Source of the DNA: Cellulomonas palmilytica
GTDB lineage: Bacteria; Actinomycetota; Actinomycetes; Actinomycetales; Cellulomonadaceae
Reading direction: 5' to 3'
Assembly: GCF_021590045.1 (NCBI RefSeq)
Contig: NZ_CP062221.1
Span: 1,116,001-1,180,000, forward strand
Length of the DNA: 64,000 nt
Position numbers and translations under genes: made by a program. A model generated the notes under the pieces. That model saw only the letters and a program-made list of their open reading frames with translations. It made no database searches and was not told the origin of the DNA. Positions 27,007-30,258 of this stretch are shown here, one piece after another (the stretch's first letter is position 1; every line of letters begins with the position of its first letter).

Positions 27007-28242
27007 TCAGGGCCGGCTGCGGACGTGCTCGGCGAGGAAGTCCGCGACGAGTGCGCCGACCTGGTCCTCCTCGATGAGGAACCCGTCGTGCCCGAAGTCG
27101 GAGTGCACGACGCGCACGGGCCCCGCACCGGGGACGTGCGCGGCGATCCGCTCGGACTGCGCGACGGGGAACAGCCGGTCGGTGTCGACGGCGACGACGA
27201 GCGCGCGCGCGGTGATCTGCGACAGCGCGTTGTCCACGCCGCCGCGGTCGCGGCCCAGGTCGTGCGTGAGCATGGTGCGGGTCAGGGTGACGTACGTGTT
27301 CGCGTCGAACCGCCGCGCGAGCTTGTCGCCGTGGTGCTCGAGGTAGGACTGCACGGCGAACCGGCCGCCCTCGAGGGGGTCCTCGGCGCCCTGCGGGATG
27401 CGGCCGAACCGCTCGTCGAGCTCGTACGCGGACCGGTAGCTCTGGTGCGCGATCTGCCGGGCGAGCCCGAGCCCGCGGTGCGGGCCCTCGCCGGGCGCGG
27501 CGTCGTAGTAGTCGCCGCCGCGGAACGCCGGGTCCTGCTGGATCGCGACGAGCTGCGTGTGGAAGTTGGCGATCTGGTCGCCGGAGCTCGCCGCGGTCGT
27601 CGCGATCGCGACGAACGCCTCGACGCGCTCGGGCTCGGACGCGGCCCACTCGAGCACGCGCTGCCCGCCCATGGAGGCCCCGATGACGAGCGCCCAGCGG
27701 CGGATGCCGAGCAGGTCGGCGAGCCGGACCTCGGCCGCGACCTGGTCGCGCACGGACAGCACGGGGAACCGCGAGCCCCAGGGGCGTCCGTCGGGCGCGG
27801 GGGAGGCGGGGCCGGTGGACCCCTGGCAGCCGCCGAGCACGTTGGGGGCGACGACGAACCAGCGGTCGGTGTCGATGGGCGCGCCGGGCCCGACCATCGA
27901 CTGCCACCACCCCGGCGTGGGGTGGCCGTCGCCCGCGTCGCCGGTGACGTGCGAGTCGCCGGTGAGGGCGTGCAGCACGAGGACCGCGTTGGAGCCGTCC
28001 TCGGCGAGCGTGCCCCACGTCTCGTAGGCGAGGCGCACGGCGGGCAGGCGGCCGCCGGACTCCAGGGCGAACGGTCCGAGGTCGGCGAGCTGCCGGCGCC
28101 CGAGCGGGTCGCCGTCCTGCCACGCGGCCGAGGCGGGCACCGGGGGGCGCTCCGCGACCGGCACGCGGCTGGTCCGGGTACGGGCGTGCGCGCTGCCGGC
28201 CGGGTGGCTCACGGCAGCGGCCGTCACGTTCTCGTCGGACAC
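27007..28242 (-). CDS. metX: Homoserine O-acetyltransferase
   Basis: Transfers an acyl group from acyl-CoA to homoserine, the first dedicated step of methionine synthesis; its product is used by MetY next door. The 411-aa protein is an alpha/beta hydrolase fold. The nucleophile is Ser190 in VIGASMGGQ, with Asp in VAVDTDRLFP and His in GHDGFLIEE as the rest of the triad. LGGCQGSTGP and LHALTGDSH are conserved family segments. Acetyl versus succinyl specificity is assumed from the actinobacterial context. GTG at 28242 is 8 nt after TAGATT. The N-terminal 40 residues are variable. It lies downstream of metY on the same strand but seems to have its own promoter. Confidence 0.93.
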   Translation of the reverse strand: MSDENVTAAAVSHPAGSAHARTRTSRVPVAERPPVPASAAWQDGDPLGRRQLADLGPFALESGGRLPAVRLAYETWGTLAEDGSNAVLVLHALTGDSHVTGDAGDGHPTPGWWQSMVGPGAPIDTDRWFVVAPNVLGGCQGSTGPASPAPDGRPWGSRFPVLSVRDQVAAEVRLADLLGIRRWALVIGASMGGQRVLEWAASEPERVEAFVAIATTAASSGDQIANFHTQLVAIQQDPAFRGGDYYDAAPGEGPHRGLGLARQIAHQSYRSAYELDERFGRIPQGAEDPLEGGRFAVQSYLEHHGDKLARRFDANTYVTLTRTMLTHDLGRDRGGVDNALSQITARALVVAVDTDRLFPVAQSERIAAHVPGAGPVRVVHSDFGHDGFLIEEDQVGALVADFLAEHVRSRP

Positions 28243-28391: not shown

Positions 28392-29711
28392 TCAGGCGCC
28401 CTTGGCGGCGCGGAAGCCGGCCTCGAGGTCGGCCAGGATGTCGTCGACGTGCTCGATGCCGACCGCGAGCCGCACGAGGCCGGGCGTGACGCCGGACAGC
28501 GCCTGCTCCTCCTCGGTGAGCTGGCTGTGCGTGGTCGAGGCGGGGTGGATGACGAGCGAGCGCACGTCACCGATGTTCGCGACGTTCGAGTGCAGCTCGA
28601 GCGCCGAGACGAACGCCTGGCCGGCCGCGGAGCCGCCCTCGATCTCGAACGCGAGGACGGCGCCGCCGCCGCGGGGCGCGTACTTGACCTGGTTGGCGTG
28701 CCACGGGCTCGACTCGAGGCCCGAGTAGTGCACGCCGAGCACGTCGTCGCGCGCCTCGAGCCACTGCGCGACCTTGGTGGCGTTCTCGACGTGGCGCTCG
28801 AGGCGCAGCGACAGGGTCTCGATGCCCTGCGAGATGAGGAACGCGTTGAACGGCGAGATCGCCGAGCCGAGGTCGCGCAGGAGCTGGATGCGCGCCTTGA
28901 GGATGTAGGACAGGTTGGCGCCGAACGCGGAGCCGACGCCGAGCGCCTCGGCGATCTTGAGGCCGTGGTACGACGGGTCGGGCAGGTTGAAGCCGGGGAA
29001 GCGGTCCGGGTACTGCGCGTAGTCGAACGTGCCGCCGTCGACGATCACGCCGCCGATCGCGGAGCCGTGCCCGCCGAGGTACTTGGTGGCGGAGTGCACG
29101 ACGACGTCGGCGCCCCACTTCAGCGGGTTGATCAGGTAGGGCGTCGCGACGGTGTTGTCGACGATGAGCGGCACGCCGTACTCGTGCGCGACGCCGGCGA
29201 CGAGCTCGATGTCGAGCACGTCGGACTTCGGGTTGGGGATCGTCTCGGCGAAGAACGCCTTGGTGTTGGGGCGGATCGCGGCGCGCCAGGCCTCGGCGTC
29301 GTGCGGGTCGTCGACGAACGTCGTCTCGACGCCCAGCTTGGGCAGCGTGTAGTGCAGCAGGTTGTACGTGCCGCCGTAGAGCGAGGGGCTCGCGACGACG
29401 TGGTCGCCGGCCTCGGCGACGTTGAGGATCGCGAACGTCTCGGCGGCCTGGCCGGACGCGACGAGGAGCGCGCCGACGCCGCCCTCGAGGGACGCGATGC
29501 GGTTCTCGACGACCTCCTGCGTGGGGTTGCCGATGCGCGTGTAGATCGGGCCGAGGTCCTGGAGGGCGAAGCGCGCGGCGGCGGTCCCGGCGTCCGGGAA
29601 CACGTAGGACGTGGTCTGGTAGATCGGCAGGGCGCGGGCGCCGGTGGCCGCGTCGGGGGTCTGGCCGGCGTGGATCTGGCGGGTCTCGAAGTTCCAGTTC
29701 TCGTTGCTCAC
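28392..29711 (-). CDS. metY: O-acetylhomoserine sulfhydrylase
   Basis: A PLP enzyme of the Cys/Met metabolism family that converts O-acetylhomoserine and sulfide to homocysteine. The 439-aa length is typical of the bifunctional O-acetylhomoserine/O-acetylserine group. The PLP lysine is in HSATKYLGGHGS (~210). SGQAAETFAILN and VDNTVATPYL, the substrate and cofactor segments, are intact, as is the C-terminal LVIHPASTTHSQL. GTG at 29711 has AAGGAG 7 nt upstream. Upstream lies a ~190-nt leader with a leaderless seven-residue ORF ending in Cys-Arg and several hairpins, so regulation by cysteine or arginine tRNA charging is possible. It precedes metX. Confidence 0.95.
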   Translation of the reverse strand: MSNENWNFETRQIHAGQTPDAATGARALPIYQTTSYVFPDAGTAAARFALQDLGPIYTRIGNPTQEVVENRIASLEGGVGALLVASGQAAETFAILNVAEAGDHVVASPSLYGGTYNLLHYTLPKLGVETTFVDDPHDAEAWRAAIRPNTKAFFAETIPNPKSDVLDIELVAGVAHEYGVPLIVDNTVATPYLINPLKWGADVVVHSATKYLGGHGSAIGGVIVDGGTFDYAQYPDRFPGFNLPDPSYHGLKIAEALGVGSAFGANLSYILKARIQLLRDLGSAISPFNAFLISQGIETLSLRLERHVENATKVAQWLEARDDVLGVHYSGLESSPWHANQVKYAPRGGGAVLAFEIEGGSAAGQAFVSALELHSNVANIGDVRSLVIHPASTTHSQLTEEEQALSGVTPGLVRLAVGIEHVDDILADLEAGFRAAKGA

Positions 29712-29736
29712 TGCTGGCTCCTTGTGGCGGGGTGGG

Positions 29737-29775
29737 TCCGCGGGGAGCTCGGGCAGCCGACGTCCGACCCGCGGA
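29737..29775 (-). promoter_or_regulatory. Hairpin in the metY leader near the ribosome site
   Basis: TCCGCGGG and CCCGCGGA pair across 23 nt. The stem ends 12 nt before the AAGGAG of metY, so it could influence translation. Two smaller hairpins lie between it and the short upstream ORF. Confidence 0.4.
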
Positions 29776-29878
29776 GGGGGGAGTGGCGCACGGTCGAGAC
29801 GGGCTGGTGCGGGGCGTCGTCGGGCCGGAGCGAGGTCCGGGCGGCGACCTGCCCGCAGGCATGCCGAACGTGCGCTGG

Positions 29879-29902
29879 TCAGCGACACATTCGACGAAGC
29901 AT
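29879..29902 (-). CDS. Leaderless upstream ORF MLRRMCR before metY
   Basis: Seven codons and a TGA encode MLRRMCR. The ATG follows a TAGCCT box by 6 nt, the leaderless spacing shown by full genes in this window. Cys and Arg at the end, just before the stop, suggest a leader peptide whose translation senses charged tRNA-Cys or tRNA-Arg and controls metY through the hairpins downstream. This is inference; Cys-containing uORFs before sulfur genes are known in actinobacteria. Confidence 0.5.
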   Translation of the reverse strand: MLRRMCR

Positions 29903-29908
29903 GGGCCG

Positions 29909-29914
29909 AGGCTA
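29909..29914 (-). promoter_or_regulatory. -10 box for the metY leader
   Basis: TAGCCT on the minus strand, 6 nt before the ATG of the uORF. Confidence 0.55.
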
Positions 29915-30258
29915 CGGGCTGCGTCCGCGCCGCAAAACGGCCGTCTTGCCATGTGGGATGGCCGTCTCATCTCCGTCCGTCGCGGTGCTGGTCGGGACCT
30001 ACGTCTCAGATGGTGGACGCATCCCGTCGCATCTGTCGGGTTCGTCCCGGATGTGACTGCTGTGAAAGGAGTGACTCTTGTGACTGGAGTTCACTTCTGT
30101 GGCACGCGTGGGTACCGTCCGAGAACACGGACCTCACCGTCGAGGTCACGGCCGTGGGCGGACGTGCCGATGACATCGGTACGAACGCGCCGGACCGGAC
30201 ATCACCGGCACCCGGGCGGGAACGGCGAGACATCGGCACGACGAAGGGCACGCACCAG
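29915..30258. other. Divergent regulatory region metY / NlpC-P60
   Basis: No gene. It holds the metY promoter side at the left and a set of 9-bp spaced repeats at 30053-30094 towards the right, followed by about 160 nt before the peptidase start. Confidence 0.5.
30053..30094 (+). promoter_or_regulatory. Direct-repeat operator candidate (GTGAC every 9 bp)
   Basis: GTGAC begins at 30053, 30071 and 30080, GTGAA at 30062 and GTTCAC at 30089, all exactly 9 bp apart. Direct repeats of this type are used by response regulators such as MtrA, which controls wall hydrolases in actinobacteria. The regulator is inferred. Confidence 0.45.

Follow-up and report, generated by a model that had tools for sequence, protein, structure and literature searches.

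In Cellulomonas palmilytica, a seven-codon open reading frame (ORF) encoding MLRRMCR lies upstream of metY. We found it in a stretch of 64,000 nucleotides (nt) from the genome of this bacterium (contig NZ_CP062221.1, positions 1,116,001 to 1,180,000), which we refer to as the window. The conservation of its sequence strongly supports this upstream ORF (uORF) as a leader peptide of metY. It probably belongs to an attenuator of leaderless type, with transcription starting at the ATG, that responds to cysteine and possibly to methionine. The ORF, its conservation, and the complementarity and geometry of the RNA segments around it are computed; from these we infer the start site, translation, the amino-acid response with its direction, and the participation of Rho.

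All features described here are on the minus strand. The uORF, TGA included, occupies 29879..29902 and reads ATG CTT CGT CGA ATG TGT CGC TGA (29902-29879). A first-pass annotation of this DNA had noted a TAGCCT box exactly 6 nt before its ATG and about 165 nt between the uORF and metY. Direct reading confirmed the box as a -10 element at 29909..29914, with CGGCCC as the spacer, and gave 167 nt from the uORF stop to the metY start. The metY gene (28392..29711) begins with GTG at 29711, behind the Shine-Dalgarno sequence AAGGAG (29718..29723, read directly). Its product matches NF005872, the bifunctional O-acetylhomoserine/O-acetylserine sulfhydrylase, with 766 bits against a cut-off of 703.

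The annotation had named absence of the ORF from relatives as one finding that would refute it. We found the ORF widely conserved. A MetY protein search gave 80 loci, of which 26 had 600 nt of upstream sequence and were placed in the Cellulomonas group by record title (Cellulomonas, Actinotalea, Cellulosimicrobium, Oerskovia, Isoptericola, Demequina and close records). The upstream sequences were filtered for TANNNT 4-8 nt before ATG or GTG, an ORF no longer than 40 codons and a Cys among the last five residues, so that a Cys near the end was required, whereas R, M and codon choice lay outside the filter. In 25 of the 26 loci there was a short ORF of the form M-x(1-2)-[RC]-R-M-C-[RSC]* whose -10 spacing matched that of the window uORF, while none was found under the same filter in 51 other loci with 600 nt upstream; at one locus (L026) the upstream stretch was too short to judge. 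The codons CGA ATG TGY NGC TGA were kept without exception in all 26 leaders compared, the window included.

Whole genomes gave a similar picture. The nucleotide core CGAATGTGYNGCTGA occurs in 181 of 221 genomes of the family, and metY in 209 of them (E up to 1e-120). Across the order, 107 of 396 genomes carry the core, compared with 1 of 396 for the reversed pattern, while cores with the three synonymous Arg codons together match 72 of 396 against about 30 for their reversed control (the two reversed figures are hand counts). Among the 36 family genomes in this draw, the CGA core matches 28 and the three synonyms together match 3. This preference for CGA indicates that the bases matter, beyond the amino acids. 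Of 60 further core loci that were read, 59 sit upstream of metY, and in the genome of the window the core and its synonymous forms occur once only, at metY, with a further 25 places at one or two mismatches. A sister genus (g19) lacks the core in all 13 genomes, yet 9 of 9 loci read there have a uORF with one extra codon in frame (MTRRMCCC, MTRRMCSC or MTCRMCCH) and retain the -10 element, CGAATGTG and GCGCACGTTCG; two further stretches from that search were too short upstream for reading. In a class-wide draw, the strict pattern of core plus segment 2 (described below) was found in 2 of 393 genomes, both of the window's family; 44 of the 393 belonged to the order, and none of the 349 outside it had the pattern. 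NCBIfam returned no family up to E 10 for four longer uORF peptides of relatives, the heptapeptide itself being too short for such a scan.

The uORF is regarded as real because it is conserved, and not because of its start signal. TANNNTN6ATG has 1 match in the window against 0.38 expected, a count reached in 34 of 100 shuffles, so a bare -10/ATG match proves nothing alone. Chance origin of the uORF is ruled out by conservation, although that match is unremarkable. Leaderless-type starts are common in the window: TANNNT is followed after 5-8 nt by ATG or GTG at 13 sites, 11 of which open ORFs of at least 252 residues, bearing out the earlier remark that the same spacing marks full genes. The other two are a 79-residue ORF and the uORF. 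Of the 105 unique leaders that have an in-frame ATG, 102 also show TANNNT 5-8 nt 5' of it, and this spacing suggests a transcription start at or beside the uORF ATG.

For the RNA analysis we combined the 26 leaders from the MetY search with 84 collected by the exact core, in which R-M-C is present mostly by construction, and removed four duplicates from these 110 to leave 106. Of the several hairpins that had been proposed between the uORF and metY, one proved to be widely conserved. In this hairpin (1:2; 47 nt, -20.9 kcal/mol, z-score -3.26) the last uORF codons pair with GCGCACGTTCG just 3' of the stop. Its 5' arm, segment 1, is CGAATGTGTCGC (29882..29893), where CGA is the favoured Arg codon, and its 3' arm, segment 2, is GCGCACGTTCG (29865..29875). 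Across leaders the pairing joins CGAAUGUG-Y-NGC to GCGCACGUUCG, with the stop codon in or beside the loop. The wobble base of the Cys codon is T or C among leaders, and either this base or its neighbour is bulged. Folding of 104 leaders without a ribosome made hairpin 1:2 dominant (0.87).

Segment 2 is also complementary to a distant segment 3 (CGUGCGC in RNA; CGTGCGC, 29786..29792), through its GCGCACG. An exact complement of the leader's own segment 2 was found in 68 of 83 canonical leaders against 3.6 expected in shuffles, a count that overstates the independent evidence since the leaders are related, and in 8 of the 21 variants, where 0.57 would be expected. Segment 2 is missing from two leaders. 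Shifted registers gave a complement in 0-8 of 97 leaders (97 of the 106 were used). Both partners are changed in pairs such as GCGCACC/GGTGCGC, GCGCACA/TGTGCGC, TCGCACG/CGTGCGA and GCACACG/CGTGTGC. Segment 2 could thus pair with segment 1 or with segment 3, alternative helices that the first-pass annotation had overlooked.

The same dyad might instead act in DNA, as an operator for a sulfur-responsive transcription factor just 3' of the start site, with the small ORF incidental. Operators are often located there, next to the promoter, and CGAATGTG...CACGTTCG is a near-perfect inverted repeat beside the promoter. We nevertheless consider an operator unlikely. Between the stop and segment 2 lie 1 to 7 nt in 96 of 99 leaders and 13 or 16 nt in the other three, a variation that would be hard for a dimeric operator but tolerable for a hairpin. 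Furthermore, the observed length changes keep the reading frame, one of them through an added, mostly Cys, codon, and one pair of the dyad is T-G, which is good in RNA and asymmetric in DNA. An operator also does not account for a distant segment complementary to segment 2.

Returning to an RNA switch, we modelled stalled ribosomes on the leaders, taking the bases as covered to 15 nt past the first base of the peptidyl (P) site, a toeprint value. Counted from the A of the internal AUG, the start of segment 2 lies at 13-19 nt, with 15 the commonest distance (40 of 96 leaders). Averaged over these 96 leaders, the probability of segment 2 pairing with any downstream sequence was 0.74 for a stall at Met and 0.57 at Cys, and fell to 0.13 for the last codon and 0.007 for the stop. 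The exact 2:3 helix, modelled in the 76 leaders with their own exact complement, is weaker than this any-downstream count. Its mean was 0.05 on free RNA, 0.52 for a Met stall and 0.33 for a Cys stall, and it dropped to 0.05 with the ribosome at the last codon and to 0 with it at the stop; the helix exceeded 0.5 at the Met stall in 40 of the 76. For the window itself the values were 0.94 at Met and 0.28 at Cys. Stalls at earlier Arg codons would open the switch as well. The modelled switch is therefore opened only by a ribosome that halts ahead of the last codon, more strongly at Met than at Cys, and the Cys case hinges on a few bases of the ribosome footprint. The complementarity behind the two putative, mutually exclusive helices is strong, and folding agrees with it at the Met stall and only in part at the Cys stall.

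We propose the following mechanism. Transcription would begin at or next to the ATG, and a ribosome would enter at the 5' end, so that metY expression is tied to charged Cys-tRNA and possibly Met-tRNA. When Cys (or Met) is scarce, the ribosome would stall with UGU (or AUG) in the aminoacyl (A) site and cover segment 1. Its leading edge would end about where segment 2 starts, allowing segments 2 and 3 to pair and metY to be expressed. With ample supply, the ribosome would reach the stop and cover segment 2, or depart, whereupon hairpin 1:2 would form; segment 3 along with the C-rich leader would be left open, and metY would be lowered, most simply by Rho-dependent termination. A C-rich, G-poor stretch just 3' of segment 3 (29771..29785) is a possible Rho loading region.

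Rho-dependent termination is plausible as the readout from base composition. In the 155-nt leader the C fraction is 0.50 and the G fraction 0.29, an excess seen in 1.25% of 160-nt pieces of the window on both strands, and C exceeds G in 105 of 105 leaders. Upstream of metY, C minus G was 0.183 with the uORF (n=26) and 0.041 (standard deviation 0.06) without it (n=52), a comparison confounded with taxonomy. Other control elements were tried and rejected. An intrinsic terminator with a T run was not found in 29640-30160. Rfam covariance models, S-adenosylmethionine (SAM), T-box and others, gave no match in the window at gathering cut-offs and none at E up to 5 in 29680-30120, excluding a known riboswitch.

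Which codon would be sensed was judged from the peptides. The first-pass annotation had proposed a leader peptide sensing Cys or Arg. The leader and its Cys part are supported by conservation and by extra Cys codons, and the part resting on the last-codon Arg is not. For residue counts we used 30 of 31 distinct peptides, leaving out MRMCC for its doubtful start. The variable positions hold 102 residues, among which Arg is the most frequent (44) and Cys accounts for 12. At least two Cys codons are present in 10 of the 30 peptides. Cys is favoured as the sensed residue because such extra codons recur in relatives. It is the penultimate codon in the window uORF and stands near the end in 26 of 26 leaders, though the filter required it there. 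The window uORF has a single Cys and is not classed as a strict polycysteine uORF for that reason; runs of contiguous Cys codons are confined to relatives (MTRRMCCC, for example). The evidence does not favour the last-codon Arg, because Ser, Cys or His replaces it in some relatives and because the modelled switch stays closed on a stall there. The CGA Arg codon nearer the start may remain a candidate.

R-M-C is shared by all 26 leaders, so that the Met before Cys, which the annotation had also overlooked, never changes among them. The constant ATG TGT (29885..29890) thus supplies two candidate sensing codons. Met and Cys are adjacent, constant and both placed where a stall can open 2:3 in the model, more strongly at Met, whereas a ribosome at the last codon or at the stop would shut it. 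It is possible, and we suggest it tentatively, that one seven-codon uORF acts as a dual Met and Cys sensor on metY, with a Rho-type readout in place of a terminator. If true, this uORF would read both amino acids that depend on the metY enzyme.

The constancy of R-M-C, with R and M outside the filter, could also reflect a nascent peptide that arrests the ribosome on a free metabolite instead of uncharged tRNA, as some regulatory uORFs are controlled by nascent-chain arrest. This is quite unlikely here: seven residues are few for an exit-tunnel signal, those ahead of R-M-C vary, and added Cys codons fit a tRNA sensor better. Very unlikely is a constitutive leader that merely loads ribosomes on the mRNA or stabilises it with no amino-acid response: delivery of ribosomes from a leaderless uORF to the next ORF has been discussed (in the part of PMC4633059 available), but the uORF stop is 167 nt away from metY, and the constant Met-Cys, the added Cys codons and the segment 2/3 complementarity would be left unexplained.

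Several observations weigh against an attenuator controlled by Cys and possibly Met, our preferred explanation. The sole miss among the 26 loci (L030, an Isoptericola record) has no short leaderless-type ORF at all, and metY lacks the uORF in a record from another genus (L217). No exact complement was found in 13 of the 21 variant and 15 of the 83 canonical leaders. Canonical CGTGCGC occurs in 6 of the 21 variants, in 4 of these besides the leader's own complement. Compensation is unambiguous in four leaders only (L101, L115, L194 and L206), and 5 of the 8 variant successes have the form GCACACG in common. At the Cys stall, with the 15-nt footprint, the exact 2:3 helix exceeded 0.5 in only 25 of the 76 leaders (median 0.06). 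A conserved third partner of segment 3 (helix 3:4) was not above shuffles in 78 leaders (mean z -0.04), and accessibility of the metY Shine-Dalgarno sequence hardly shifts in 104 leaders (0.35 free, 0.38 stalled, 0.36 at the stop), a difference too small to suggest its masking as the output. With neither a 3:4 partner nor a Shine-Dalgarno change, it is base composition that supports the proposed output step. Finally, of the 15 core loci that precede three other kinds of gene, 13 lack GCGCAC within 40 nt of the stop, which indicates that the segment 2 switch is mainly a metY feature and that the core is not kept by the switch alone. Two uORFs before metY in family f14 (L131 and L139) keep the peptide tail but have an SD-like (Shine-Dalgarno-like) sequence and no segment 2.

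At L030, the last 330 nt before metY hold another reading frame upstream and a TACGGT 6 nt before the in-frame ATG, so that metY itself looks leaderless where the uORF is absent. In the window, metX lies downstream of metY, and its start at 28242 is also of leaderless type (TAGATT, 8 nt, GTG); its transcription may be separate from that of metY.

The core also reaches other genes. Among 20 core loci, mostly from genomes with two copies, 10 precede metY, 4 a MetN-like ABC gene and 5 an unnamed short protein, and the last is an inverted copy of a metY leader. Forty further core loci (38 from other families of the order, 2 from the window's own) comprise 15 before metY, 6 before a regulator-like protein and 19 with no recognised target, several of which are probably chance matches in coding sequence.

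The uORFs before the MetN-like ABC ATPase genes (L099, L100, L105, L107) are longer and end CRARMCR* (three) or CRGRMCR* (one), with start sites assigned by eye; the MetN-like gene of the one locus tested had TIGR02314 as its best NCBIfam match, below cut-off. Those before the unnamed protein of 83-100 residues (L090, L093, L095, L096, L106) end CRMCR*, four of the five as RC[LS]CRMCR*; this protein gave no Pfam match (two tested) and no NCBIfam match (one tested). In family f18 (L129, L133, L134, L135, L136, L149) a uORF ending MCCRMC[RS]* precedes a protein that by eye resembles a winged-helix regulator. One genome (G108) has its metY leader with MFCRMCR* twice, inverted, on opposite strands 1.2 kb apart (L102 and L103); the second copy faces an NlpC/P60-like frame, again by eye. 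In the genome of the window, the 500 nt upstream of the best MetN-like gene contain no short ORF with a Cys, and there is no match to the 85-residue protein.

The start signal differs at some metY loci. At L131, L139 and L050 (Nakamurella) the uORFs MTCRMCR, (GTG)NCRMCC and MCCRMCCRS have an SD-like GAGGAG or AAGGAG in place of the leaderless-type start. In mycobacteria, 8 of 24 metY loci (L055, L058, L059, L062, L065, L075, L077, L078) have other, unrelated-looking Cys-rich short ORFs (MRSPNMCHCR, MRPDMCDSC, MRASLHPLTRCCCR and others) beside a TAGAC(A/G)GGG box, and three more have MCRCP or MCMCP without that box.

If our explanation is true, ribosome-timed attenuation would operate without intrinsic terminators in high-GC Actinobacteria from a sensing ORF of seven codons, and control by Cys-containing uORFs would extend to metY and past mycobacteria. 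Under the tentative dual-sensor reading, the R-M-C tails before the MetN-like, 85-residue-protein and regulator-like genes would make the uORF a regulon-wide leader module. In addition, the motif permits annotation across the order of such uORFs, which are too short for most gene finders.

In our search, from which subscription literature was mostly outside, we found no published description of a metY leader peptide of this kind. Related systems are known. Mycobacterial polycysteine leaderless uORFs (Canestrari et al. 2020, doi 10.1111/mmi.14498, as described in the accessible parts of PMC9031893 and PMC13236596) are, like the putatively leaderless uORF of metY, leaderless short ORFs with Cys codons before sulfur amino-acid genes, there the cysteine genes, and are described as attenuating translation according to Cys supply. 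The uORF reported here differs in that its heptapeptide has a single Cys (the sister genus has as many as three), that it precedes metY and that it is part of a predicted switch between helices 1:2 and 2:3. Actinobacterial Cys leader peptides of cys and cbs operons were reported by Seliverstov et al. 2005 (PMC1262725), who suggested Rho for the mycobacterial cys leaders; in the parts seen these are also short ORFs with Cys codons by the stop and no terminator hairpin, and Cellulomonas is not named. That study, as far as its accessible text goes, left the attenuator parts of such leaders open, and we propose for the metY leader two conserved segments with two possible partners.

The nearest published peptide we found is the metL leader peptide of Streptomyces lividans TK24, MSTTSDRTPATEATTTPGARCMCRRMCAF, which precedes metNIQ and is leaderless by mapped start sites. 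According to the available text of PMC8079986, its authors call it a methionine leader, and it has no typical Rho-independent terminator, its termination being unclear. Its tail, ...CMCRRMCAF, has R-R-M-C in common with the window uORF, and both precede a sulfur amino-acid gene. It differs in its 29 residues and in the gene controlled, and the description available mentions several hairpins and no ribosome-timed switch. With the classical trp-type attenuator the metY leader has in common a leader peptide and, as far as predicted, helices that exclude each other according to where the ribosome stands; unlike it, the metY leader has no T-run terminator hairpin and no conserved segment 3:4. In sum, leaderless uORF attenuation is known in mycobacteria and Streptomyces, and the metY target and the RNA layout described here appear to be new.
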